DNA from: an uncultured Eubacteriales bacterium
GTDB lineage: Bacteria; Bacillota; Clostridia; Oscillospirales; Oscillospiraceae
Reading direction: 5' to 3'
Assembly (NCBI GenBank): GCA_949293985.1
Contig: CASFFN010000012.1
Coordinates: forward strand, 1 to 64,000
Length of the DNA: 64,000 nucleotides
Numbering within the stretch: the first letter of the stretch is position 1; each line of letters starts with the position of its first letter. The position numbers and the translations under genes are program-made. Below, in pieces: positions 7,380 to 42,412 of this stretch. Below the pieces are notes generated by a model, which was given only the letters and a program-made list of their open reading frames with translations, searched no databases and was not told the origin of the DNA.

Positions 7380-8285
7380 TTAGGAAATCCTTTCTAATTT
7401 GTCTAAAACCTGCAAAAAGTAGTCGGGCAGCGGCGCCACCACCACAATGGGCCTGCCGTCTCTGGGGTGGGAAAAGGACAGAATCCCGGCGTGGAGGCAC
7501 TGGCTGGACTGGCCCAGCTCCGGCTTCTTGTGTCCGTAGACCATGTCCCCCAGAATGGGGTGGCCGATGTAGGCCATATGCACCCGAATCTGGTGGGTAC
7601 GGCCGGTTTCCAGGCGGCACCGCACATGGGTGTAGCCCCGGTACCGCGTCACCACCTCCCAGTGGGTGACGGCGGCTTTGGAATTGCGCTGGGTGACGCA
7701 CATCTTTTTCCGGTCTGTGGGATGGCGGCCGATGGGAGCGTCCACCGTGCCGGAGTCCTCCTTGAGGCTCCCGCAGACGATGCACTCGTAAGTTCTGGCC
7801 ATGGAGTGATCCTTCAGCTGGGAGGCCAGCACCGTGTGGGCCAGGTCGTTTTTCGCGACGGCCAGAAGGCCGGAGGTGTCCTTGTCAATCCGGTGGACGA
7901 TTCCCGGCCGGAGCTTGCCGTTGATGCCGGAGAGGGTGTCCCCCTTGGCGTAGAGCAGGCCGTTCACCAAAGTATCCTCCGTGTGCCCCGGGGCGGGGTG
8001 CACCACCAGCCCCTTGGGCTTGTTGATGACCAGCACATCCTCGTCCTCGTAGACGATGTCCAGGGGGATTTCCTTGGGGGCGATGTCCACCGGCTCCGGC
8101 TCCGGGATGGCAAGGCGCACCTCGTCCCCGGGCCGCACCTTGTCGTTTTTCTTTCCGGGTTTTCCCCGGAGGGTGACGCAGCCGTCTTCCAGGAGCCGCT
8201 GGGCGGCGGAGCGGGTCAGCCCCTCCACCTGCCGGGACAAAAAGGCGTCCAGCCGCTCACCGGGCAAATCTCCGTATAAAATCAT
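7380..8285 (-). CDS. rluD: Ribosomal large subunit pseudouridine synthase, RluD family
   Basis: The 301-residue protein has an N-terminal S4 RNA-binding domain (about residues 1-60) and the RluA/C/D catalytic core. The signature HRIDKDTSGLL contains the catalytic Asp. The enzyme isomerises uridines in 23S rRNA; members of this family differ in target, and the RluD position is assumed from length and architecture. The start overlaps the end of lspA by 4 nt (ATGA type). lspA followed by rluD is a very common order in Firmicutes. Confidence 0.92.
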   Translation of the reverse strand: MILYGDLPGERLDAFLSRQVEGLTRSAAQRLLEDGCVTLRGKPGKKNDKVRPGDEVRLAIPEPEPVDIAPKEIPLDIVYEDEDVLVINKPKGLVVHPAPGHTEDTLVNGLLYAKGDTLSGINGKLRPGIVHRIDKDTSGLLAVAKNDLAHTVLASQLKDHSMARTYECIVCGSLKEDSGTVDAPIGRHPTDRKKMCVTQRNSKAAVTHWEVVTRYRGYTHVRCRLETGRTHQIRVHMAYIGHPILGDMVYGHKKPELGQSSQCLHAGILSFSHPRDGRPIVVVAPLPDYFLQVLDKLERIS

Positions 8286-8755
8286 ACTTTTTCCTTCCAG
8301 AATTCCCGGTTAAAGAACATCAAATGGACAATCAGGGCGATGCAGCCGCAGGTGATGCAGCAGTCCGCCAGGTTGAATACCGGGAAATTGATAAATTCCA
8401 CTTCGATCATGTCCACCACATACCCCAGGCGAATCCGGTCGATGATGTTTCCCAGACCCCCGGCATACACCACGGCAATGCACCACCGGTCAAAGGTGGT
8501 AAAGGGCCAACGCTTTTTGGAGAACTCCCAGATGATCCCCAGGGTGAACAGCAAAAAAATCCCAAGAAACAGCCACTGCATTCCGGAGAGCATGGACCAG
8601 GCGGCGCCGGTATTCTGGGTGTAGGTCAGATGGAAAATCCCATCCAGCACCGGGATTTCTCCGTATAAGGGGATGTTGTTCACCACCCACAGCTTACTCA
8701 GTTGATCCAGAACCGTGGCAATGACGACAAAAATACCCATAAACAAATAGGTCAT
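8282..8755 (-). CDS. lspA: Lipoprotein signal peptidase (signal peptidase II)
   Basis: The start at 8755 is preferred because GGAGGA lies just upstream, inside the longer open frame that would begin at 8776. The protein has 157 residues and four membrane helices. The catalytic Asp motifs are GNIIDRIRLGYVVDM and FNLADCCI. It cleaves the signal peptide of lipid-modified prolipoproteins in the membrane. Lipoproteins in this window (30,137 and 63,882) would be substrates. Confidence 0.95.
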   Translation of the reverse strand: MTYLFMGIFVVIATVLDQLSKLWVVNNIPLYGEIPVLDGIFHLTYTQNTGAAWSMLSGMQWLFLGIFLLFTLGIIWEFSKKRWPFTTFDRWCIAVVYAGGLGNIIDRIRLGYVVDMIEVEFINFPVFNLADCCITCGCIALIVHLMFFNREFWKEKV

Positions 8756-8782
8756 GGAAAATCCTCCAGATTTCAAAATTCT

Positions 8783-9913
8783 CTAACGCAGGGTTTTCAG
8801 AAACCCTTCCAGACGGTTCAGGCCCTCTTCCAGAGCGGTCTGGCTGCAGCAGCAGGAGATCCGCACATGGCCCTTGTCCTCAAAGCAGCTGCCCGGCACC
8901 AGGGCCACCCCGGCCTCCTGAATCAGCCGGGTGCAAAATTCCTCATCGGAAAGACCAAAGGGGGCAATCTCCGGGTAGATGTAAAAGGCACCCTCCGGCT
9001 TGGGGTAGGAAAGTCCCATCTCATCCAGCCGCTGACAGACATACGCCCGCCGCCGGGTGTAGCTTTCCACCATGTCCGACACATCCGTATGGAGGGCCGT
9101 AACGGCGGCTTTTTGCAAAAAGGTGGGCATGGCAGCCACCAGGGCGGCATGAAGGAGCAGCAGCCGCTCCATAGCCTGCTCCGGCCCCATAAGATACCCC
9201 AGCCGCCAGCCGGTCATGGCATAGGGCTTGGAGAAGCTGCGGCACAGAAGAAGCTGCTCTCTCAACTCCTTCCAGGGGGCAAGTTCCGGCACGGGGCCTT
9301 GGGACAGCTGATTGTATACGCCGTCCCATACGACCCAGACGGGCTTGCCCGCCACCAGGGAAGCCACCGCCTCCAAAGATTCCCGGGTGTAGACAGCGCC
9401 TGTGGGGTTGTTGGGGGAGTTGAGGATAATGGCCCTGGTTTTTTCCGTGATACAGGCAGAAAGCCGCTCCCGGGTCAGCTGGAAGCCGTCCTCCCGGGTG
9501 GGCATGGCCACCATTACCGCCCCGGCGGCGGTGAGGATGGAGCGATACAGGGGATAAGCCGGGGTGGGGACGATCACCTCGTCTCCCGGGTTCACCACCC
9601 CCATAAGGGCCACATACAGCGCCTCCGTTGCCCCGGCAGTGACAATCACCTGATTGGGGGTGCAGTCATACCCCAGGCCGGTTTCGTACCTGGAAATCTC
9701 CCGGCAAAGCTCCGGCAGCCCCCGGTTGGGGGCGTAGTGGGTGAAGTTTTCCTCCAGTGCTGCCTTGGCGGCGGCCTTGATAGGCTCCGGGGTGGGGAAG
9801 TCCGGCTCTCCCAGAGCCAGGGAGATGCACCCGGGGGTCTGGGCCGCCAGGGCGGTAAAGCGGCGGATGCCGCTGAGCGTCATAGCAGATAAATTTTCAT
9901 TCAGGGGAAGCAT
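8783..9913 (-). CDS. patA: PLP aminotransferase, probable N-acetyl-diaminopimelate aminotransferase
   Basis: The 376-residue fold-type I aminotransferase shows LALGEPDFPTP near the N-terminus, NSPNNPTGAVYTRE, and the PLP-lysine motif SFSKPYAMTGWRLGYLMG. The start overlaps the stop of the upstream deacetylase by 1 nt. Family membership is certain. The specific role, giving N-acetyl-LL-diaminopimelate in the acetylase branch of lysine synthesis, is inferred from its position between the deacetylase gene and lspA and from divergent dapH. An aspartate aminotransferase is the alternative. Confidence 0.75.
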   Translation of the reverse strand: MLPLNENLSAMTLSGIRRFTALAAQTPGCISLALGEPDFPTPEPIKAAAKAALEENFTHYAPNRGLPELCREISRYETGLGYDCTPNQVIVTAGATEALYVALMGVVNPGDEVIVPTPAYPLYRSILTAAGAVMVAMPTREDGFQLTRERLSACITEKTRAIILNSPNNPTGAVYTRESLEAVASLVAGKPVWVVWDGVYNQLSQGPVPELAPWKELREQLLLCRSFSKPYAMTGWRLGYLMGPEQAMERLLLLHAALVAAMPTFLQKAAVTALHTDVSDMVESYTRRRAYVCQRLDEMGLSYPKPEGAFYIYPEIAPFGLSDEEFCTRLIQEAGVALVPGSCFEDKGHVRISCCCSQTALEEGLNRLEGFLKTLR

Positions 9914-26275: not shown

Positions 26276-27046
26276 ATGACAACTATTGCTATTGCCAACC
26301 AAAAGGGCGGCGTTGGCAAAACCACCACTACTGTGAACCTGGCCGCAGGACTGGTGAGCCTGGGAAAGCGGGTGCTGTGCCTGGACTTTGACCCGCAGTG
26401 CCACCTGGCAAAGTACCTGGGCCATACCCATGACAACGGCGTAACCATCACGGACTTCATCGCTGCCAAGGCCAGCTACATGGAGATGCCCTCCACGGAG
26501 GGGCTTATCCGGCACGGTGTTGCCGGAATCGACTTTATCCCGGCCTCCCTCCGGCTGAGCCGGGCGGAAACCATGCTGGCCCAGGCCATGTTCCGGGAGC
26601 GGGTACTGCGGGACATACTGGAGATAATCGTCCCGGAAAAATACGACTATCTGCTCATCGACTGCAACCCCAGCATGGGTGTGCTGCTGACCAACGCTCT
26701 GGTAGCAGCGGACCGGGTACTGATTCCCGTCCAGACAGAAGAATTCAGTCTGGACGGCCTGGAGGACATGGTAGACCTGATTCAGATGGTCAAGAAAAAT
26801 ATCAACCCCAGGCTGGAAATTATTGGACTGCTGCCCACGCTCACCACCCGGACGAAGGGCAGCGCCGAGGTCATCCGCTGGCTCCAGGACGGCTACCCTG
26901 CCCTGGTGCTGAAAACGGAAATTGGCCGATATGCCGACGCTCCCAAGTCGGTAGCGGCCCGGAAGCCGGTTATTGGTTCCAAGAGCAAATTGGGAGAACA
27001 GTACATGGCAGCAACCAGAGAGCTGCTGACAAGATTGGAGGGTTAA
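26276..27046 (+). CDS. parA: ParA/Soj-type partition ATPase
   Basis: The 256-residue protein starts with the deviant Walker A IANQKGGVGKTTTTVNLA, followed by LCLDFDPQCHLAKYLG and LLIDCNPSMGVLLTNALVAA. It is a DNA-binding ATPase that moves ParB-bound DNA. The start follows GAGGAGG. It opens a parA-unknown-parB operon, suggesting that the ICE can persist as a circle after excision. Confidence 0.95.
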   Translation: MTTIAIANQKGGVGKTTTTVNLAAGLVSLGKRVLCLDFDPQCHLAKYLGHTHDNGVTITDFIAAKASYMEMPSTEGLIRHGVAGIDFIPASLRLSRAETMLAQAMFRERVLRDILEIIVPEKYDYLLIDCNPSMGVLLTNALVAADRVLIPVQTEEFSLDGLEDMVDLIQMVKKNINPRLEIIGLLPTLTTRTKGSAEVIRWLQDGYPALVLKTEIGRYADAPKSVAARKPVIGSKSKLGEQYMAATRELLTRLEG

Positions 27047-27048
27047 TC

Positions 27049-27588
27049 ATGTATAACAGAATGGAAGAAGATATTAAAACAATTAGAAAACGGCAACTGG
27101 AGATTAAATTGTCCGATGCTGATACATTACGGCTTATCAAGAAAGCAGGCGAAGTCAATCTGACCGTTTCCGAACTGCTGGAAAACTTCATTGCCGACCT
27201 GGTATGTGGAACCTTCACCAACGGTTCCGACGAGCGGATGTTTGCCGAGGAGTGGTTTAACCGCTGCTGGTTTGCGATGTTTTCAGAGAATACGCTACTG
27301 AGCCATCTTCTGGAGACGGAGGTAGATCTAAAAAAATTCATTGCTGCCTATGAGGAAAACGAGAACTATAAAGCGCACCCGGAGGACTACAGGGAGTTGA
27401 TGGAGGATGAGCCTGAGGACACATTCTGGTTTGAGGACGAATTGAAATGGTACCTGGAAGGGTGGACGCCGACCGGAGAGCCGGACATGAACAAAGAGAT
27501 AGAAAGAATCCGGGACTATTTAAGCGAAATTCAAATGCTGACTTCGGAAAACGAAAACAAAGACCCGGAATTTGATCTTGAGATGTGA
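27049..27588 (+). CDS. Unknown protein between parA and parB
   Basis: The 179-residue protein begins 2 nt after parA. The N-terminus (IKTIRKRQLEIKLSDADTLR, then AGEVNLTVSELLENFIADLV) looks like a ribbon-helix-helix or similar small DNA-binding motif. The rest is strongly acidic, with many Glu and Trp, and ends DPEFDLEM; the protein at 39,678 ends similarly (DMDLEM). I do not recognise the family. Its position suggests an accessory role in partition or ICE regulation. Confidence 0.7.
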   Translation: MYNRMEEDIKTIRKRQLEIKLSDADTLRLIKKAGEVNLTVSELLENFIADLVCGTFTNGSDERMFAEEWFNRCWFAMFSENTLLSHLLETEVDLKKFIAAYEENENYKAHPEDYRELMEDEPEDTFWFEDELKWYLEGWTPTGEPDMNKEIERIRDYLSEIQMLTSENENKDPEFDLEM

Positions 27589-27600
27589 ATAGTTGGAGGG

Positions 27601-28536
27601 ATGAAAGTGGAACGAGAGCGTATTCGTGGAGAGAATGAATGGGCCGAGATGTTTACCCCTGCCCCATCGGTGCAGCTGGTCCAGGTTCCCCTGGCACAGC
27701 TGGTCCCCTGGGAACAGGCAGACGGCAGTCCCCAGCCCTTTAAGCCCTACACCCCGGAGAAACTGGGAGAACTGGCAGACAGCATCCGGCAGCACGGTGT
27801 CCTGGAGGCCATTCGGGTGCGGCCCAGGAATGGAAAGTTTCAAATTCTGGCCGGACACAACCGGAGCCAGGCCGCAAAGCTGGCCGGACTGACCACCATT
27901 CCCGCTATCGTAGAGGATGTGGACGACGACCAGGCCGCTTTGATTCTGGTGGATTCCAACCTTCAGCACCGGGAAAAGCTGCTGCCCAGTGAAAAAGCAT
28001 ATGCATATAAACTGCAACTGGAAGCCATGAAACGGCAGGCTGGACGGCCACAAAAAAATTCGTGCCAAGTTGGCACGAATTTCCGAAGTGACGAGTTACT
28101 GGCCGAATCATCCCAAGACAGCGCCCGGCAGATTCAGCGTTACATCCGCTTAACCTACCTGAATCCCCTGCTGCTGGAGCTGGTGGACCAGGAGAAAATC
28201 GGCATGACCCCCGGCGTGGAGCTGTCTTATCTGTCTGACAGTACCCAGGACAAACTCCTGGAGGTAATGGCAGTCAACGGAATCCTGAAGATTTCCGGGA
28301 AGCAGGCCAAAGACCTCCGGGAAGCCGGTTCCCCGGAGAAGGAAGAAATTGCTCAAATCCTGGGGCTGACCGGGAAGCAGCCGAAACCTGCAACAATCAA
28401 AATTCAGCCGGATCTGAGCCGGTATCCGGCCCATGTGGTACAGCGGCTCCGGAAAGACAAAGCGTATCTGGACGGATTGCAGGCGGCTTTGGAAGCCTTT
28501 ACAGACCAGTACCTGACAGAGAAAGCCGAAATTTAG
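27601..28536 (+). CDS. parB: ParB-family partition protein 1
   Basis: The 311-residue protein has the ParB N-terminal CTP-binding domain (IRQHGVLEAIRVRPRNGKFQ, LAGHNRSQAAKLAG). The central helix-turn-helix region includes SARQIQRYIRLTYLNPLLLE. Around residue 152 the linker NSCQVGTNF is encoded by a 27-bp palindrome that recurs elsewhere in the element. ParB proteins load at parS and spread. It is the third gene of the parA operon; a second ParB lies at 37,753. Confidence 0.93.
   Translation: MKVERERIRGENEWAEMFTPAPSVQLVQVPLAQLVPWEQADGSPQPFKPYTPEKLGELADSIRQHGVLEAIRVRPRNGKFQILAGHNRSQAAKLAGLTTIPAIVEDVDDDQAALILVDSNLQHREKLLPSEKAYAYKLQLEAMKRQAGRPQKNSCQVGTNFRSDELLAESSQDSARQIQRYIRLTYLNPLLLELVDQEKIGMTPGVELSYLSDSTQDKLLEVMAVNGILKISGKQAKDLREAGSPEKEEIAQILGLTGKQPKPATIKIQPDLSRYPAHVVQRLRKDKAYLDGLQAALEAFTDQYLTEKAEI
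28056..28082. repeat. parS-like palindrome 1, inside parB1
   Basis: Two perfect 13-bp arms (AAATTCGTGCCAA and its complement) flank a central G. Identical or related sites occur at 37,655, 37,702 and 45,680. A ParB binding site is the most likely meaning. Confidence 0.7.
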
Positions 28537-31070: not shown

Positions 31071-31098
31071 GCCCCGACTTCAAAAGTCGGGGCTTTTT
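31071..31098 (+). terminator. Terminator after the lipoprotein gene
   Basis: The 10-bp stem GCCCCGACTT / AAGTCGGGGC with a 3-nt loop is followed by five T. Confidence 0.92.
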
Positions 31099-31131
31099 AA
31101 TATGCAAAAATCTTGAGAAAGGATGATGAAC

Positions 31132-34100
31132 ATGAAACACCGCTTGATGCAGGTACTTTCCCTGGTGCTGGCGTTGGTGCTGCTCTTTGGATGCATCCCC
31201 ACCGCTTTTGCGGAAACCCCGGAAATCCCTGTAGAAACGGAACCGCCCTACACAGGGGCGGAAACAGACACGGGACAGGTTCCTCCGGTTACAGAGGAAA
31301 CCACGCCCCCCACGGAGCCGGAGGAAACCGAACCTCCGGCAGAAACAACGGCTCCCACAGAGCCGCAGGAGCCTCTGGCAACGGAAGCCCCCTCCGAAAA
31401 TACGGAGCCGACAGTGCCGGAAGAAAGCACTCCGACAGATGAGGAGGAAGTCCCCGGCTATGAGCTGGAAGTGGGAGATGTGTTGGTTCCCACCACCGTG
31501 GGAAATTCCCAGATAGTTCCCATGACCCTGCCGCCAGATACGGATCTGACTATTGTAAAAAAGGATTATTACACGCCTTTCCCCAATGGTGTGACATTCT
31601 ATTTTTACTCAGATAACCAGCCATATCCTCTGGGACGGTACACCGCCGCCTCTGCAACCATCTTCCACCTGTCAGATGGGCGGGTGGGCTATTGTATGCA
31701 CCCCATGCTGTCAGGCGGCGGTGACTATGAAGCCACCGACCCCGGAGATAGCTACATTGGGGATGACGGCTGGCCAACAGCCATTTATAGCTCCAGTTCC
31801 GGATGGCTGAGCTGGGATTTTGACAGAATCAGCAAGCGAGGAACCTGGCTGGTTATGGCATACGGCGCTCCCAACAACGGAGACACCTCAGACGCCGGCA
31901 TCAAGGCAACTGCCCTGTGCGTCTGGGACATGATTACCGGCCACCGGAATCTGGACGGAACACCCCGGAATGGTGGAGCACCTTTCTATGATGCCCTTAC
32001 CGATTCTGCCATTAAAGCCAAGTATGATGAGCTGCTGGACAAGCTGGCCAATCACGGAAAAATCCCCAGCTTTACTGTTGGCCTCCGTTCTCAGTTGGGC
32101 CCCTCCAGCACCATCACCCTGAAAAAGGACGCCAATACCGGCCTCTACACCGGCTCCGCAACCGACAAGAACGGCGTTTTGGCAAACTTCCATTTCATAT
32201 CCAACATTCAGGGGCTGACCTTCACCAGAAGCGGCAACACCCTGAAGGTGACGGCCACGGAAGCCGCTGCCAAGAAGCTGAATCAGCTGGTGGTGCAGTC
32301 CCGTGGATACGAGTTGGGGGAGGGAACCAAAGCCTGTACCGTTTACCAGGACAAATACAATCCTGGCACCAAGCAGAAACTCATTGCCCTGGACGGTCCT
32401 GTGGACCCGGTTCCCTGTCTGTTCCGTCTGGCCGTTGAGGTGGAGGGCCAGATCCAGGTGAAGAAAACCACCAACACCGGACAGAACCTCTCCGGATGGA
32501 AGTTTGAAATCGTGGACAAAGCCACGAACAAGGTGGTAAAAACCGTTACCACCGATTCCAAGGGCCTGGCCACAGCCACCAATCTTCCTGCCGGGGAGTA
32601 CATCGTCCGGGAAGTGGGAGGCGGTGACGCCTACTGGCAGCTGGACACCTCCGGTCACACGGTAACGGTGGTTGCCGGTCAGACCGCAACTGTCACCGTC
32701 AACAATGTCCACCGGGGCAGAATCGTGGTACAGAAGAATGCCGTCAACGGCAGTCCGGAAGGCTGGAAGTTTGAAATCTGGCAGGGCAACACCCTGGTGG
32801 AAACCCTTACTACCGGCGGGGATGGCCGGGCAGTCAGTAAGTACCTGCTTCCCGGAAACTACAAGGTTAAGGAACTCCATGACCGGGACGGAACCTACTG
32901 GGAATACGATGTAAAGGTGGAGCAGAACGCCACCGTCACAGCAGGTCACGACACCACCGTGACCTATACCAATACCCAGTATGGTCTGCTTCAGATTGTC
33001 AAAACCATGGCGGACGGCACCTCCCCCGCCGGATGGGTGTTCCGGGTAACGGATTCCACCGGTCAGGAGGTCCCCGGCTCTCCCTTTACCACAGGTGAGG
33101 ACGGCGTGATTCTCTCCGGCAAGCTGGCTCCCGGAACCTATACGGTGGAGGAAATCATCCCGGAGGATTCCCTGTACTTCTGCGAAAGCGAGAATCCTCA
33201 GACGGTGGTGGTGACTGCCGGTCAGACTGCCGAGGTACAATTCACCAATGCCCTCCGGCCCGGTAAAATCACCGTCCAGAAGGTTGACACCCTGGGCAAT
33301 CCCCTGTCCGGTGCAGTATTCCTCCTGGAATGGAGTACGGATGGGAAGATTTGGAATCCCATTGTCTATTCTGAAACCATCCAGGCCGGTGGATGCAGCA
33401 ATCCCAATGTGGTGGACGGCTGCATTACCACAGGAGCCGACGGCCTGGCCAGCTGGGAGAATCTCCACCCCGGTCTTTATTACCGGGTAACGGAAGTGAA
33501 AGCCCCGGGCGGCTATCAGCTGCTGACGGAGCCGGTCTTTACCGGAAAGCTCCCCATTGAGGACCTCACCATTTCCCTTCGGGTGGTAAACGCTCCCATC
33601 TTCACCCTGCCCCAGACTGGCGGCATGGGTTTTGACGGCTTTACCGCCGGTATCATTCTCTCTCTGAGTGCCTGTCTGGGCGCTCTCTTTTTTATGCTCT
33701 CTGCCGGGAAGAAGCCCCGGCTTTTTTCATATCAAAAACAAGAAAGGAAAGGTTACAAAATGAAGAAGTTTTTTGCCCTGATGATGACCCTGGTGCTGCT
33801 TCTCAGCGGTATCCCCACGGCCTTGGCAGCAGATGCGGCTGACGCCACCATTGACACGGACGCCTCCTTCTCTCTGACGATTTTTAAGTATGATTGGACC
33901 AACGCTGTCAAGGACGGTGTCTGGAACGAGGATTCCTTCATCTCCACCGGCTGGCGTGAAAGCTATGTGGAAGATGTGCTGGGCAATGCTGTCCGGCAGG
34001 GCGATGCCGATGGCAGCACCGGCAACGACCTGGGCAACGGCCAGAACGCCAACGGCTATGCTCTGAAAGGCGTGGAATTTACCACTCTGAAGGTAGCCGA

Positions 34101-35907
34101 CATTGTTACCTTTACGGAATCCGCCAATGACCAGCACCCCGACTACAACCTGACCCAGGTACTGTACGGCTTCCACAAGGTAAAGGCCGCTGACCTGCTG
34201 GCCGCCATTGGCCTTAATGACGGTGCGGGCCGTTACACCAATGCGGACAACACCGACAAGCTCAGCAAGGACAATTATTATTACACCTCTGAAACCCTGA
34301 ACAAGGCCCTGGCTTCCGCCCTGGCCGCCAACGCCACCGCCGTCAAGGACGCTCTGGAAACCTACATGGCCGCACAGGATGGTGCCATTGTCATGGCCAA
34401 GACCGATGAGAACGGCAAGACCATTCAGCGGAACCTGCCTGTGGGTCTGTATCTGTGCGTGGAAACCGCCGTTCCCGAAATGGTGACTTCCACCACCAAT
34501 CCCTTCTTTGTCAGCCTGCCCATGACCACCGTTTCCGGAGACGACAACTCCTCCTCTCCCGAGGGCGGCCACGCCTGGAATTACGATGTGGTGGTTTACC
34601 CCAAGAACGAAACCGGCATCCCCACCCTGGAAAAGACCGTCCGGGAAGCCAAGAAGGACACCGGCAAGAATGAAGGAACCAGCACCATTACCGACGGCTT
34701 TGCCCACACCGCTACCGGCTCCTCCGGTGATGTGATGGAGTACCAGGTGATTTCCACCCTGCCCACCATCACCTCTCAGGCCACCGCTCTGACGGTATAC
34801 AACTTCTATGACACCCTTTGTGAGGGTCTGAGCTACAACAAGTCCCTGCGGGATGTGAAGATTGAATTCTTCACGGACAAGGACTGCACCGACAAGGTTG
34901 CCTCCTGGGATATGGACAGCGGCAAGTTTACCGTCACCTACTCCAGCGATGACCGGCACATGACTGTGGATGTGACTGCCGCAGGTCTGGCTGAAATCAA
35001 CGGCGATACGGAAAATGTCAACGGCCAGCTCTATGCCGGTTACTCCAACTACACCCTCCGGCTCACCTACACGGCCGCCATCGATTCTGACGCCTCCGTG
35101 GTGTTCGGTGACAACGGCAACGACAACCAGGTGGTTCTCACCTGGAAGCGCACTTCCACCGAATACTATGACACCCTGATTGATGACTGCCATGTGTTTA
35201 CCTTCGGCATTGACCTGACCAAGCTGTTTTCCGATGTGGATTCTGAGACCGCTGAGGAGCAGAGGATGTTCGACCATGTGAAGTTCAAGATCTGGAACGA
35301 AACCGACGGCTACTGGGTGACTGCCACCCGGAACGAGGAAGAAGGTGTCTACTATGTCACCGGTCATGTGACCGATGAAACCGACGCCACCATCTTCCAC
35401 CCTGTAACCATGGGTGAGGCTCTGGGCCAGATTATGGTTAAGGGCTGTGAGGATGACGAGTACATCATCACGGAGGTAGAAACCGCCAACGGCTACACCC
35501 TCCTGAAGGACGATATTCATGTGGTGATTTCCACCCAGATTGACAACAGCCGTCCCTGTGACATTTACTCCCGGGATGTGCTGGGTGTTCTCCAGAACGA
35601 CCCCCGCTATGCCTTTGACGGCGGTCTGGATTTGCGTCTGGCCAACATTCCCCAGAAGCAGCTGGCCCACGACTATCTGACCGCTTCCGCAACGGTGGAC
35701 GGCAATGCCGTGACCATGCTGGAGGACAACGGCTCTGCCAATGCAGAAGCGCCTCTCACCGTGGTGAACACCCCCGGCTTTGACCTGCCCCAGACCGGCG
35801 GTTACGGCACCATGATTTTCACCGTCACCGGTATTGTGGTGATGGCGCTTGCCGCCGGAGTAACCCTCTGGCTCCTCTTTGGCAAGCGCAAGAAGGAAAA
35901 CGCCTGA
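31132..35907 (+). CDS. Fused reading frame: pilus tip adhesin plus backbone pilin
   Basis: One frame without a stop covers two complete sortase substrates. The start at 31132 is preferred (GAAAGG 10 nt upstream). Part 1 (residues 1-876) has a signal peptide, a Pro/Thr/Glu stalk and a thioester-like domain (GRVGYCMHPML near residue 186). Four CnaB/SpaA domains follow (such as GWKFEIVDKATNKVV), with the E-box TEVKAPGGYQLL, then LPQTGG, a membrane helix and a basic tail. Instead of a stop, the frame continues through KKPRLFSYQKQERKGYK into the signal peptide of part 2. Whether this is made as one chain is unknown. Confidence 0.8.
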   Translation: MKHRLMQVLSLVLALVLLFGCIPTAFAETPEIPVETEPPYTGAETDTGQVPPVTEETTPPTEPEETEPPAETTAPTEPQEPLATEAPSENTEPTVPEESTPTDEEEVPGYELEVGDVLVPTTVGNSQIVPMTLPPDTDLTIVKKDYYTPFPNGVTFYFYSDNQPYPLGRYTAASATIFHLSDGRVGYCMHPMLSGGGDYEATDPGDSYIGDDGWPTAIYSSSSGWLSWDFDRISKRGTWLVMAYGAPNNGDTSDAGIKATALCVWDMITGHRNLDGTPRNGGAPFYDALTDSAIKAKYDELLDKLANHGKIPSFTVGLRSQLGPSSTITLKKDANTGLYTGSATDKNGVLANFHFISNIQGLTFTRSGNTLKVTATEAAAKKLNQLVVQSRGYELGEGTKACTVYQDKYNPGTKQKLIALDGPVDPVPCLFRLAVEVEGQIQVKKTTNTGQNLSGWKFEIVDKATNKVVKTVTTDSKGLATATNLPAGEYIVREVGGGDAYWQLDTSGHTVTVVAGQTATVTVNNVHRGRIVVQKNAVNGSPEGWKFEIWQGNTLVETLTTGGDGRAVSKYLLPGNYKVKELHDRDGTYWEYDVKVEQNATVTAGHDTTVTYTNTQYGLLQIVKTMADGTSPAGWVFRVTDSTGQEVPGSPFTTGEDGVILSGKLAPGTYTVEEIIPEDSLYFCESENPQTVVVTAGQTAEVQFTNALRPGKITVQKVDTLGNPLSGAVFLLEWSTDGKIWNPIVYSETIQAGGCSNPNVVDGCITTGADGLASWENLHPGLYYRVTEVKAPGGYQLLTEPVFTGKLPIEDLTISLRVVNAPIFTLPQTGGMGFDGFTAGIILSLSACLGALFFMLSAGKKPRLFSYQKQERKGYKMKKFFALMMTLVLLLSGIPTALAADAADATIDTDASFSLTIFKYDWTNAVKDGVWNEDSFISTGWRESYVEDVLGNAVRQGDADGSTGNDLGNGQNANGYALKGVEFTTLKVADIVTFTESANDQHPDYNLTQVLYGFHKVKAADLLAAIGLNDGAGRYTNADNTDKLSKDNYYYTSETLNKALASALAANATAVKDALETYMAAQDGAIVMAKTDENGKTIQRNLPVGLYLCVETAVPEMVTSTTNPFFVSLPMTTVSGDDNSSSPEGGHAWNYDVVVYPKNETGIPTLEKTVREAKKDTGKNEGTSTITDGFAHTATGSSGDVMEYQVISTLPTITSQATALTVYNFYDTLCEGLSYNKSLRDVKIEFFTDKDCTDKVASWDMDSGKFTVTYSSDDRHMTVDVTAAGLAEINGDTENVNGQLYAGYSNYTLRLTYTAAIDSDASVVFGDNGNDNQVVLTWKRTSTEYYDTLIDDCHVFTFGIDLTKLFSDVDSETAEEQRMFDHVKFKIWNETDGYWVTATRNEEEGVYYVTGHVTDETDATIFHPVTMGEALGQIMVKGCEDDEYIITEVETANGYTLLKDDIHVVISTQIDNSRPCDIYSRDVLGVLQNDPRYAFDGGLDLRLANIPQKQLAHDYLTASATVDGNAVTMLEDNGSANAEAPLTVVNTPGFDLPQTGGYGTMIFTVTGIVVMALAAGVTLWLLFGKRKKENA
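33703..33727 (+). terminator. Intrinsic terminator lying inside the fused pilin frame
   Basis: GCCGGG, loop, CCCGGC and six T form a normal terminator 33 nt before the second pilin ATG. It marks the expected gene border and may let only part of the transcripts reach the second pilin. Confidence 0.65.
33760..35907 (+). CDS. Backbone pilin (second module of the fused frame)
   Basis: The ATG at 33760 has its own ribosome site (GAAAGGAAAGG) and starts a clear signal peptide, MKKFFALMMTLVLLLSGIP, so it can be translated independently as 715 residues. The class C pilin motif WNYDVVVYPKN supplies the Lys used for polymerisation. An E-box (ITEVETANGYTLL) stabilises the internal isopeptide bond, and LPQTGG near residue 677, a membrane helix and GKRKKENA complete the sorting signal. 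This is a typical shaft pilin polymerised by class C sortase. Confidence 0.88.
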   Translation: MKKFFALMMTLVLLLSGIPTALAADAADATIDTDASFSLTIFKYDWTNAVKDGVWNEDSFISTGWRESYVEDVLGNAVRQGDADGSTGNDLGNGQNANGYALKGVEFTTLKVADIVTFTESANDQHPDYNLTQVLYGFHKVKAADLLAAIGLNDGAGRYTNADNTDKLSKDNYYYTSETLNKALASALAANATAVKDALETYMAAQDGAIVMAKTDENGKTIQRNLPVGLYLCVETAVPEMVTSTTNPFFVSLPMTTVSGDDNSSSPEGGHAWNYDVVVYPKNETGIPTLEKTVREAKKDTGKNEGTSTITDGFAHTATGSSGDVMEYQVISTLPTITSQATALTVYNFYDTLCEGLSYNKSLRDVKIEFFTDKDCTDKVASWDMDSGKFTVTYSSDDRHMTVDVTAAGLAEINGDTENVNGQLYAGYSNYTLRLTYTAAIDSDASVVFGDNGNDNQVVLTWKRTSTEYYDTLIDDCHVFTFGIDLTKLFSDVDSETAEEQRMFDHVKFKIWNETDGYWVTATRNEEEGVYYVTGHVTDETDATIFHPVTMGEALGQIMVKGCEDDEYIITEVETANGYTLLKDDIHVVISTQIDNSRPCDIYSRDVLGVLQNDPRYAFDGGLDLRLANIPQKQLAHDYLTASATVDGNAVTMLEDNGSANAEAPLTVVNTPGFDLPQTGGYGTMIFTVTGIVVMALAAGVTLWLLFGKRKKENA

Positions 35908-35962
35908 CCTCAGCAAGTCCCGGGGAGAATCCCTCCCCGGGACACCATAGAAGGAGATTCCC

Positions 35963-36826
35963 GTGAAGAAGAAAGTTGCGTTAGGTGCAGCGGTAGTCAC
36001 CTTTTTTCTTGCCCTCTTAATCACCCTGTATCCGCTTATCAGCACCGCTTACAACCGGCAGCACCAGTCCCAGATTCACCTTCAGCACCAGGAGCAAGTG
36101 GAACAGGCAGATAACCAGGCTTTGGAAGCTGCATGGGAGCTGGCAGAGGTTTACAACGCCGCTTTGGTGCCGGGGGTGCAGGATCTGGAGCGGTTCACCC
36201 CGGAGCAGCTGGAAGCAGCTGCAAAAGGGTACAAAGACCTCCTGGACATTGCCGGGGACGGCATTATGTGCTATGTCACCATCCCCAAGCTGAAAACTTG
36301 TCTGCCGGTATACCACGGCACCTCCGACACCGTTCTGGAGCTGGGCCTGGGGCATTTACTGGGAACCAGCCTGCCCATCGGCGGCAGCAGCACCCACAGT
36401 GTTATCACCGGCCACAGCGGCCTGGCTTCCCAGCGGCTGCTGTCCGACCTGGACCAACTGGAACCGGGCGATGTGTTTTATATCGAGGTGCTGGACAAGA
36501 CCCTGGCCTATGAGGTTGACCAAGTGAAGACCGTTTTGCCCTATGAAACGGAAGATTTGCGGATTGTCCCGGAGCGGGACTACTGCACCCTGGTGACCTG
36601 CACCCCTTTCGGAGTGAATACCCACCGGCTCCTGGTAAGAGGAACCCGGATACCCTATGAGGAACCCTCCCCCGATGCAGAAACCGCTCCCACAGAGCCT
36701 GTAACCTCTACCTGGGAGCAGGAATACCGCAACGGTATTCTCATTGGCCTGGGCATTGTGGGGCTTCTGGCAATCATTACTGTAATTATTTGGCGTATTT
36801 GGAGGTGCAAGCATGAAAAATCGTAA
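35963..36826 (+). CDS. srtC: Class C sortase 1
   Basis: The 287-residue protein has membrane helices at both ends, as usual for pilus sortases. The catalytic His is in VITGHSGLA and the Cys in TLVTCTPFGVNTHRLLVRG, which also carries the Arg. It links pilin subunits through LPQTG and the pilin-motif Lys. It follows the pilin frame after 55 nt that contain an 11-bp hairpin (35,914-35,942). Its 3' end overlaps the next sortase gene by 14 nt. Confidence 0.93.
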   Translation: MKKKVALGAAVVTFFLALLITLYPLISTAYNRQHQSQIHLQHQEQVEQADNQALEAAWELAEVYNAALVPGVQDLERFTPEQLEAAAKGYKDLLDIAGDGIMCYVTIPKLKTCLPVYHGTSDTVLELGLGHLLGTSLPIGGSSTHSVITGHSGLASQRLLSDLDQLEPGDVFYIEVLDKTLAYEVDQVKTVLPYETEDLRIVPERDYCTLVTCTPFGVNTHRLLVRGTRIPYEEPSPDAETAPTEPVTSTWEQEYRNGILIGLGIVGLLAIITVIIWRIWRCKHEKS

Positions 36827-37544
36827 GCTGCTCTTTATTGCGTTGTTTGTCCTGTTTTTAATAGGGCTGGCAATCTTCTTGTATCCTGTGATTCAACAAG
36901 CCCGGATTGACAAACAAAGCAGACAAGCCATCCAGCAATTTATGGCTGACCGTCCCGAGGAAACGCCTATGCGGCCTCAGCAGAATATTGAAGAAATCAT
37001 CCACCAGCTTCCCTATGCTGACCTGTGGCAGGATGCCAAGATGTATAACCTGCACATCCTTTCCTCCCAGCGAGAGACCCTGAACAACTCCCTGGCCTAT
37101 ATCCATCCCCAGCTGACCCTGGCAGATTACGGACTGGATTCAGAGGTTTTTGCAGTACTCACTATCCCAAAACTGGACCTGGAAATGCCTATCTACCTGG
37201 GCGCAAGCAGCAGCAACCTTTCCAAGGGAGCCGCTATACTGGGCCAGACCAGTTTGCCCATAGGTCGAGGGAATTCCAACTGTGTCATCGCAGGACACCG
37301 AGGCTGGAATGGGGCAGATTTCTTCCGATACATTACAGAACTGGAACCTGGGGACGAGGTTATCATCACAAACCTTTGGGAAACCATCCGCTATACCGTT
37401 ACGGAAACCAAAATCATCGAACCCACGGATGTGGAGAGTATCTATGTCCAGCCTGTGCGGGACATGGTGACCCTTATGACCTGTCACCCCTTTGCCAGCG
37501 GCGGCAGGTATCGCTACCTGGTCTATTGCGACCGGGAAAACTGA
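36813..37544 (+). CDS. srtC: Class C sortase 2
   Basis: The 243-residue protein has an N-terminal membrane helix and the sortase core. It has His in VIAGHRGWN, Cys in VTLMTCHPFASGGRYRYLVY, and the Arg in the same segment. It lacks the C-terminal helix of sortase 1. Two sortases beside two LPQTG substrates is the standard layout of Gram-positive pilus loci; one may polymerise the shaft and the other attach the tip. Which does which is not known. Confidence 0.92.
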   Translation: MKNRKLLFIALFVLFLIGLAIFLYPVIQQARIDKQSRQAIQQFMADRPEETPMRPQQNIEEIIHQLPYADLWQDAKMYNLHILSSQRETLNNSLAYIHPQLTLADYGLDSEVFAVLTIPKLDLEMPIYLGASSSNLSKGAAILGQTSLPIGRGNSNCVIAGHRGWNGADFFRYITELEPGDEVIITNLWETIRYTVTETKIIEPTDVESIYVQPVRDMVTLMTCHPFASGGRYRYLVYCDREN

Positions 37545-42337: not shown

Positions 42338-42412
42338 ATCCGGAGTTGACCGCAGGGCTGCCACGAAATACGAAACCGAGCCGGGGCGGTTCCCTGGCAG
42401 AAAGGAAAAAAC

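Follow-up and report, generated by a model that had tools for sequence, protein, structure and literature searches.

Background

Sortase-assembled pili raise a basic question, namely how a cell makes few tips and many shaft subunits and no shafts without tips. Two exported or membrane proteins can be encoded by one bacterial ORF, as for the fbcH cytochrome b/c1, where signal peptidase cuts at an internal signal. Control of pilus genes by a translated leader has been described for the pil1 locus of Streptococcus gallolyticus. There, leader-peptide translation that reaches a hairpin prevents termination and raises pil1 transcription, which is lower when the leader start is removed and locked high when the hairpin is removed, and the terminator needs 6 T (PMC3894217). 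In Salmonella, mgtQ is an intergenic 8-codon ORF between mgtC and mgtB (PMC8092293). A literature search in which subscription journals were little covered found no description of a tip/shaft junction such as the one presented here, with pil1 and mgtQ the nearest precedents.

The window, which is the whole stretch of 64,000 nucleotides that was analysed, contains a pilus locus in which the tip and shaft genes form one frame. The main interest of this fusion is that it exposed a recurrent and apparently translated terminator in related loci.

A tip adhesin and a major pilin in a single frame

A single ORF extends from the ATG at 31132 to the stop codon at 35907 (1591 codons; an upstream ATG at 31123 gives 1594 aa) and encodes a tip-like LPXTG adhesin that is joined through a 20-codon linker to a SpaH/EbpB-type major pilin (Table 1). 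The adhesin has LPQTGG and an anchor helix at its C-terminal end and no stop codon, in agreement with the earlier note, and the join peptide between tip and pilin is SAGKKPRLFSYQ. The pilin matched NF033902 at 134.5 bits against a cut-off of 95. Sorting signals were found on both proteins, with LPQTG at 33607 in the tip and 35785 in the pilin each followed by a hydrophobic helix, and the major pilin, the LPXTG signals and the class C sortases appear to make this a sortase-assembled pilus operon of the SpaH/EbpB type. The earlier note was also borne out in placing a terminator-like structure inside the join (hairpin and T6 at 33703-33727, in frame) and in giving the pilin a candidate start of its own, an ATG behind GAAAGGAAAGG. 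No sigma-70-like site was found by a promoter scan of the + strand from 33269 to the pilin ATG.

Table 1. Features of the pilus locus, numbered from the first letter of the window.
Feature	Position	Strand	Remarks
Terminator-like hairpin and T run	31071..31093	+	just 5' of tip gene
Tip-like adhesin	31132..33699	+	signal peptide, thioester-domain-like head without Gln, SpaA/prealbumin domains (4 stretches)
LPQTGG sorting motif of tip	33607..33624	+	
Linker SAGKKPRLFSYQKQERKGYK	33700..33759	+	tip/pilin frame; apparently derived mini-ORF region, now predicted basic tail of tip sorting signal
Hairpin GCCGGGAAGAAGCCCCGGC	33703..33721	+	6 bp stem, within coding frame; putative counterpart of junction element GCCAGGGATNNNCCCTGGC
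T6 tract (TTTTTT)	33722..33727	+	TATTTT in G099, TTTTATG in G045
Ribosome-site-like GAAAGGAAAGG	33742..33752	+	ahead of pilin ATG; sequence
Major pilin, SpaH/EbpB family (NF033902)	33760..35907	+	own ATG 33760, YPKN pilin motif, LPQTG anchor
Class C sortase	35963..36826	+	NF033745, above cut-off
Second class C sortase	36813..37544	+	NF033745, above cut-off

Hydrophobic 19-mer peaks were located at residues 838-856, corresponding to the anchor helix, and 880-898, corresponding to the pilin signal peptide, with this second stretch ending in TALAADA. The 23-residue loop between them includes nine K/R and one D/E. The frame is uninterrupted through what would be two mature proteins with predicted cleavage signals between them, and LPQTGG, helix, basic loop and second signal peptide follow in an order suitable for a polyprotein cut by sortase and signal peptidase, as had been proposed from the sequence earlier and still appears plausible. 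Such a chain would have its tip outside, cross the membrane with the anchor helix, keep the basic loop inside and cross again with the pilin signal peptide, which puts the pilin outside. Signal peptidase could cleave it at ALA/A and sortase at LPQT/G, with extra pilin probably coming from an internal start at the pilin's own ATG.

Between the pilin and the first sortase gene there is a further hairpin, rich in G+C but lacking a long T run, in the window (35910-35945, identified by eye) and in loci L048, L054, L056, L117 and L121. The ParA- and ParB-like genes at 26276-28536, 5' of the pilus cluster, hint at a plasmid or integrative element, going by a reading of their translations only. The Vescimonas fastidiosa plasmid pMM35_02 (NZ_AP023417.1, L107) has a related cluster in the order tip-pilin-sortase-sortase, close to a VirD4-like gene, and the cluster can therefore sit on plasmids. 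No relative was found in viral contigs.

Occurrence of the fused frame in other genomes

A protein search of 136 genus genomes identified 33 that matched the junction protein at E <= 1e-20, including the window's own (G000). The fused frame was also open in Candidatus Faecousia excrementigallinarum (G045, DVFK01000067.1; 94% identical over the query) and Candidatus F. excrementipullorum (G099, DVGG01000050.1; 97% identical). A DNA search of 394 genomes of the order returned a full-length match only for the window itself and short matches elsewhere, and G045 and G099 were not among the matches listed. The fused frame was present at 3 of the 32 Faecousia junctions examined, all from one clade, and a scan of all loci collected at that stage found no fusion outside these three genomes. 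The fusion is real and rare, and was found in a single clade. Recurrent fusion across many species was suggested by open-frame lengths and rejected on reading the junctions, and the other apparent fusions proved to be short overlaps or noise of the script.

As the same frame is found in two further assembled genomes, a local sequencing error is unlikely. An assembly or sequencing error in the window, including the indel at the join that the earlier note had set against its own reading, is extremely improbable; the window's assembly does consist of 66 contigs, yet the other two assemblies have the same open frame with different linker substitutions. Loss of the stop through a homopolymer slip, where one T fewer in the T6 tract gives a stop overlapping the pilin ATG, was rejected since each of the three fused genomes has a different T run and an open frame.

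A terminator-like element at related tip/pilin junctions

A hairpin is present at most of the non-fused junctions, where a terminator-like element of GCCAGGGATNNNCCCTGGC and a T run lies 3' of the tip stop. Thirty-eight distinct junctions were classified as fused (3), with the exact 5' element (24), with a variant of it (2), with a 4-nt ATGA overlap (5), with a short gap (2) or with a long gap lacking the element (2; L003 and L076). Six of these junctions (L060, L061, L064, L068, L076 and L108) are outside the genus and the other 32 make up the Faecousia set, in which 26 have the element (24 exact and the variants L040 and L171), a proportion that describes the examined loci and not the genus because these were fetched mostly by similarity to the window. 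L003, L033 and L056 do without the element, and L032 was left out as no tip was found.

The 15 distinct zero-mismatch sites of GCCAGGGATNNNCCCTGGC listed for the 136 genus genomes all belonged to pilus loci, where they coincided with the end of the tip gene or followed it immediately. They were placed by hand comparison with locus coordinates, and one of them has zero mismatches on the opposite strand only. The pattern written backwards, as a control, matched at 2 sites with no more than 1 mismatch. Spread of the element to other genera was considered and rejected, as model R1 gave a single match at E <= 0.01 in 400 family genomes and this was after a transport-like gene with no pilus.

The window hairpin folds at -12.4 kcal/mol compared with a shuffle mean of -7.3 (z -2.1). 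A scan of the window identified 19 terminator-like sites against 9.6 in shuffles, and the match at 33703-33727 is therefore weak evidence when taken alone; the counterpart in relatives is stronger evidence for the window hairpin than its own scan match. An RNA model built from 28 non-fused junctions (28 of the 30 used for the mini-ORF comparison below, with L015 and L039 left out) scored the window hairpin at 13 bits (E = 1 in 64 kb), equal to the score of a chance site at 42379-42398, and had no match at E <= 10 in loci L109, L110, L045 and L046. Stem covariation was not above shuffles (165, 142 and 41 of 500 shuffles reached the observed values) and no known RNA family came near its gathering score in the six loci searched.

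A short ORF through the junction element

After the tip stop, a short ORF (M...YHARDxPWLF...) reads through the terminator-like element. It was compared at 30 element-bearing non-fused junctions, a set which includes L011, L017, L018, L044 and L128 (absent from the 38 junctions as their pilin was unrecognised by the filter), merges L042 with L043 and leaves out L003 and L076, which have no ARD-like anchor. A start codon in the ARD frame was located within -4 to +8 nt of the tip stop at 23 of the 30 junctions, 16 of them ATG, compared with 2 of 30 in each of the other two frames. The spacing between tip stop and element covers all three phases, yet the start tracks the ARD frame. This frame is open past the hairpin at 30/30 junctions in one count and 28/30 in another, the other frames at 22/30 and 22/30, and a ribosome-site-like stretch, loosely defined, is found 5' of 19 of 25 mini-ORF starts. 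Codons for A (30/30), R (29/30), D (28/30) and P (28/30) are kept, a tally that is biased upward because the ARD-like anchor was used to collect the junctions. Variants at these four codons are mainly synonymous (AGA, CGG, GAC, CCT, CCG, GCA), and the x codon has 12 forms. Three mini-ORF peptides had no match at E <= 1 in NCBIfam and Pfam.

Two other explanations of the element were weighed against these patterns. One, which follows the earlier note's suggestion on the ratio of tip to shaft, is that the element acts as a plain partial terminator and so sets this ratio at the transcript level, with the mini-ORF incidental. It would suit the fixed place of hairpin and T run in most loci, but we regard it as very doubtful given that starts beside the tip stop keep so closely to the ARD frame and that L013, L015 and L017 retain the ARD..P codons despite a broken original stem. 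A plain terminator between tip and shaft would also lower the shaft, opposite to the usual need of a pilus, unless translation relieves it. The hairpin could instead be the site of an RNA-binding protein or antiterminator, with the peptide conserved as a by-product of its nucleotides. This would agree with the loop letters AT of the hairpin, which are conserved beyond pairing needs, but is rather unlikely since changes at the R, D and P codons are for the most part synonymous and the start codon, at any distance from the tip stop, stays in the element frame.

In L009, L014 and L034 the stop codon of the mini-ORF overlaps the start of the pilin, and in two lineages (L041 and L042/L043) the mini-ORF continues in frame into the pilin; leader-pilin joining therefore seems to represent more than one event on the tree. 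The pilin of L041, L042 and L043 may have its N terminus extended ahead of the signal peptide. The window has no separate leader ORF, as its linker is continuous with tip and pilin.

Origin of the fusion and proposed mechanism

A FastTree tree of the tip C-terminal part and the pilin (37 rows, 578 columns, midpoint root; L056 not in it) recovered the fused clade with a support of 1.0, grouped with mini-ORF loci at 0.96 inside a larger mini-ORF group. In L003 a single frame takes in the tip stop, a hairpin whose codons read SGEKPGHF and the pilin, with one TAG between. When the linker and element were aligned by eye from position and sequence, the element codons GCC AGG GAT CAG CCC TGG CTT TTT TCA corresponded to GCC GGG AAG AAG CCC CGG CTT TTT TCA in the window, which places ARDQPWLFS beside AGKKPRLFS with a stem A-T pair changed to G-C and one stem pair lost. 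The window join looks like a derived form of the recurrent junction element. The earlier suggestion of a lost stop was correct in that the tip stop is absent, and only the fused clade lacks it among the loci scanned, but this is not simply a lost stop, as the junction from which it seems to derive has a mini-ORF through the terminator-like element at 26 of the 32 Faecousia junctions examined.

We lean towards a reading, at slightly better than an even chance, in which the join is a derived form of a translated transcription attenuator between the tip and the pilin/sortase genes that was fixed by an in-frame deletion. In the ancestral layout the tip gene would end and the mini-ORF begin at most a few bases away from the tip stop, in many cases downstream of a ribosome-site-like stretch in the codons of the tip's basic tail, and the ARDxPWLF codons would form the terminator hairpin and T run. 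A ribosome passing from the tip into the mini-ORF would block formation of the hairpin, so that transcription of the shaft and sortase genes would depend on ongoing translation of the tip message. The attenuator function is suggested by analogy with the Streptococcus gallolyticus pil1 leader: related loci have an ORF with a start that overlaps the putative terminator and the window retains a hairpin with a T run. From this pil1-like anatomy and the lack of a sigma-70-like site before the pilin we infer that translation of the tip is what permits the shaft and sortase genes to be transcribed. In the window clade, an in-frame deletion would have removed the mini-ORF start together with the stop and the original basic tail of the tip, leaving a frame of tip, hairpin and pilin in which the ARDQPW codons became AGKKPR as a new basic tail. 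Passage of the ribosome over the hairpin would then be obligatory in the fused clade.

Divergence within the fused clade

Between G000 and G099, 2 of 60 linker positions differ, both synonymous, and between G000 and G045 5 of 60 differ, 4 of them non-synonymous, with no indel in either comparison; on these substitutions the linker peptide shows no visible constraint. For the tip C half and the pilin, dS among the three fused genomes is about 0.15-0.24 and dN/dS is about 0.08-0.11 for the pilin and about 0.17-0.19 for the tip C half; both stay under purifying selection. The tip N half (window 31132-32330 compared with L109) has a dS of about 1.2 between G000 and G045 against 0.22 in the C half, and the adhesin head seems to have been exchanged or to be fast evolving. 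The tips of L046, L048, L050, L052, L053 and L125 contain the motif pair YC ... ATQxxxW, which we take to be the thioester-type motif of the adhesin head, and at this site the fused clade reads ATALCVWD with the Gln lost (window tip region 31132-32460). In G099 (L110, about 8200-9900) the N-terminal half of the tip and several upstream genes are missing, a ParA-like gene is truncated and a small membrane gene abuts the remaining tip; either a true deletion or a misjoin could explain this. With the Gln lost in the fused tips and the N half lost in G099, the fusion could therefore sit in a decaying adhesin.

A neutral accident, where an in-frame deletion of the tip stop led to tolerated read-through with the pilin made from its own ATG and no role for terminator or linker, is a minor but serious possibility. 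The fused clade is single and young on the dS values above, the G000-G045 linker changes are mostly non-synonymous and the T tract is broken in two of the three fused genomes, as expected if termination no longer matters and also as expected under decay. Of the 180 one-step changes in the linker 14 make a stop, and by a rough reckoning from this a neutral 60-nt linker could easily stay open for the age of the clade. Against an accident, the three-way frame joins a recurrent element that relatives also appear to translate, and the hairpin codons shifted to Lys/Lys/Arg exactly where the basic tail was missing.

Significance and comparison with described systems

A recurrent mini-ORF that reads through a terminator lying between the tip gene and the shaft genes would be a simple and testable answer to the question of tip and shaft supply, from a little-studied gut genus, and the fused version can be viewed as a natural experiment in which the same bases would serve as sorting signal, terminator and linker. 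More tentatively, and with the chances weighted against it, Faecousia pili may have a tip-first checkpoint in the form of an intergenic terminator that is opened by ribosomes, with ARDxPWLF as its conserved nascent peptide; in the window this would be hard-wired as a tip-shaft polyprotein with a terminator-encoded sorting-signal tail.

Unlike the product of the fused frame, the fbcH polyprotein is not a sortase substrate, and fbcH is not known to have a terminator in its join. The locus resembles SpaH/EbpB pili (NF033902) in its major pilin, LPXTG anchors, class C sortases and a tip with SpaA domains, and differs from them in having the tip and major pilin in one frame. The junction element is like mgtQ as a small ORF between two operon genes with overlapping stem-loops, where mgtQ controls the downstream gene; mgtQ differs in that it frees the mgtB ribosome site, which is an effect on translation and not on a terminator, and the genes are unrelated (PMC8092293). 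The likeness to pil1 lies in a short ORF, a hairpin and T-run terminator (6 T in pil1) and pilus genes downstream (PMC3894217). The pil1 leader precedes its entire operon and is subject to phase variation through GCAGA repeats (PMC3894217), whereas the junction element is located between tip and pilin with no repeat seen and, in its window version, is fused to both genes.
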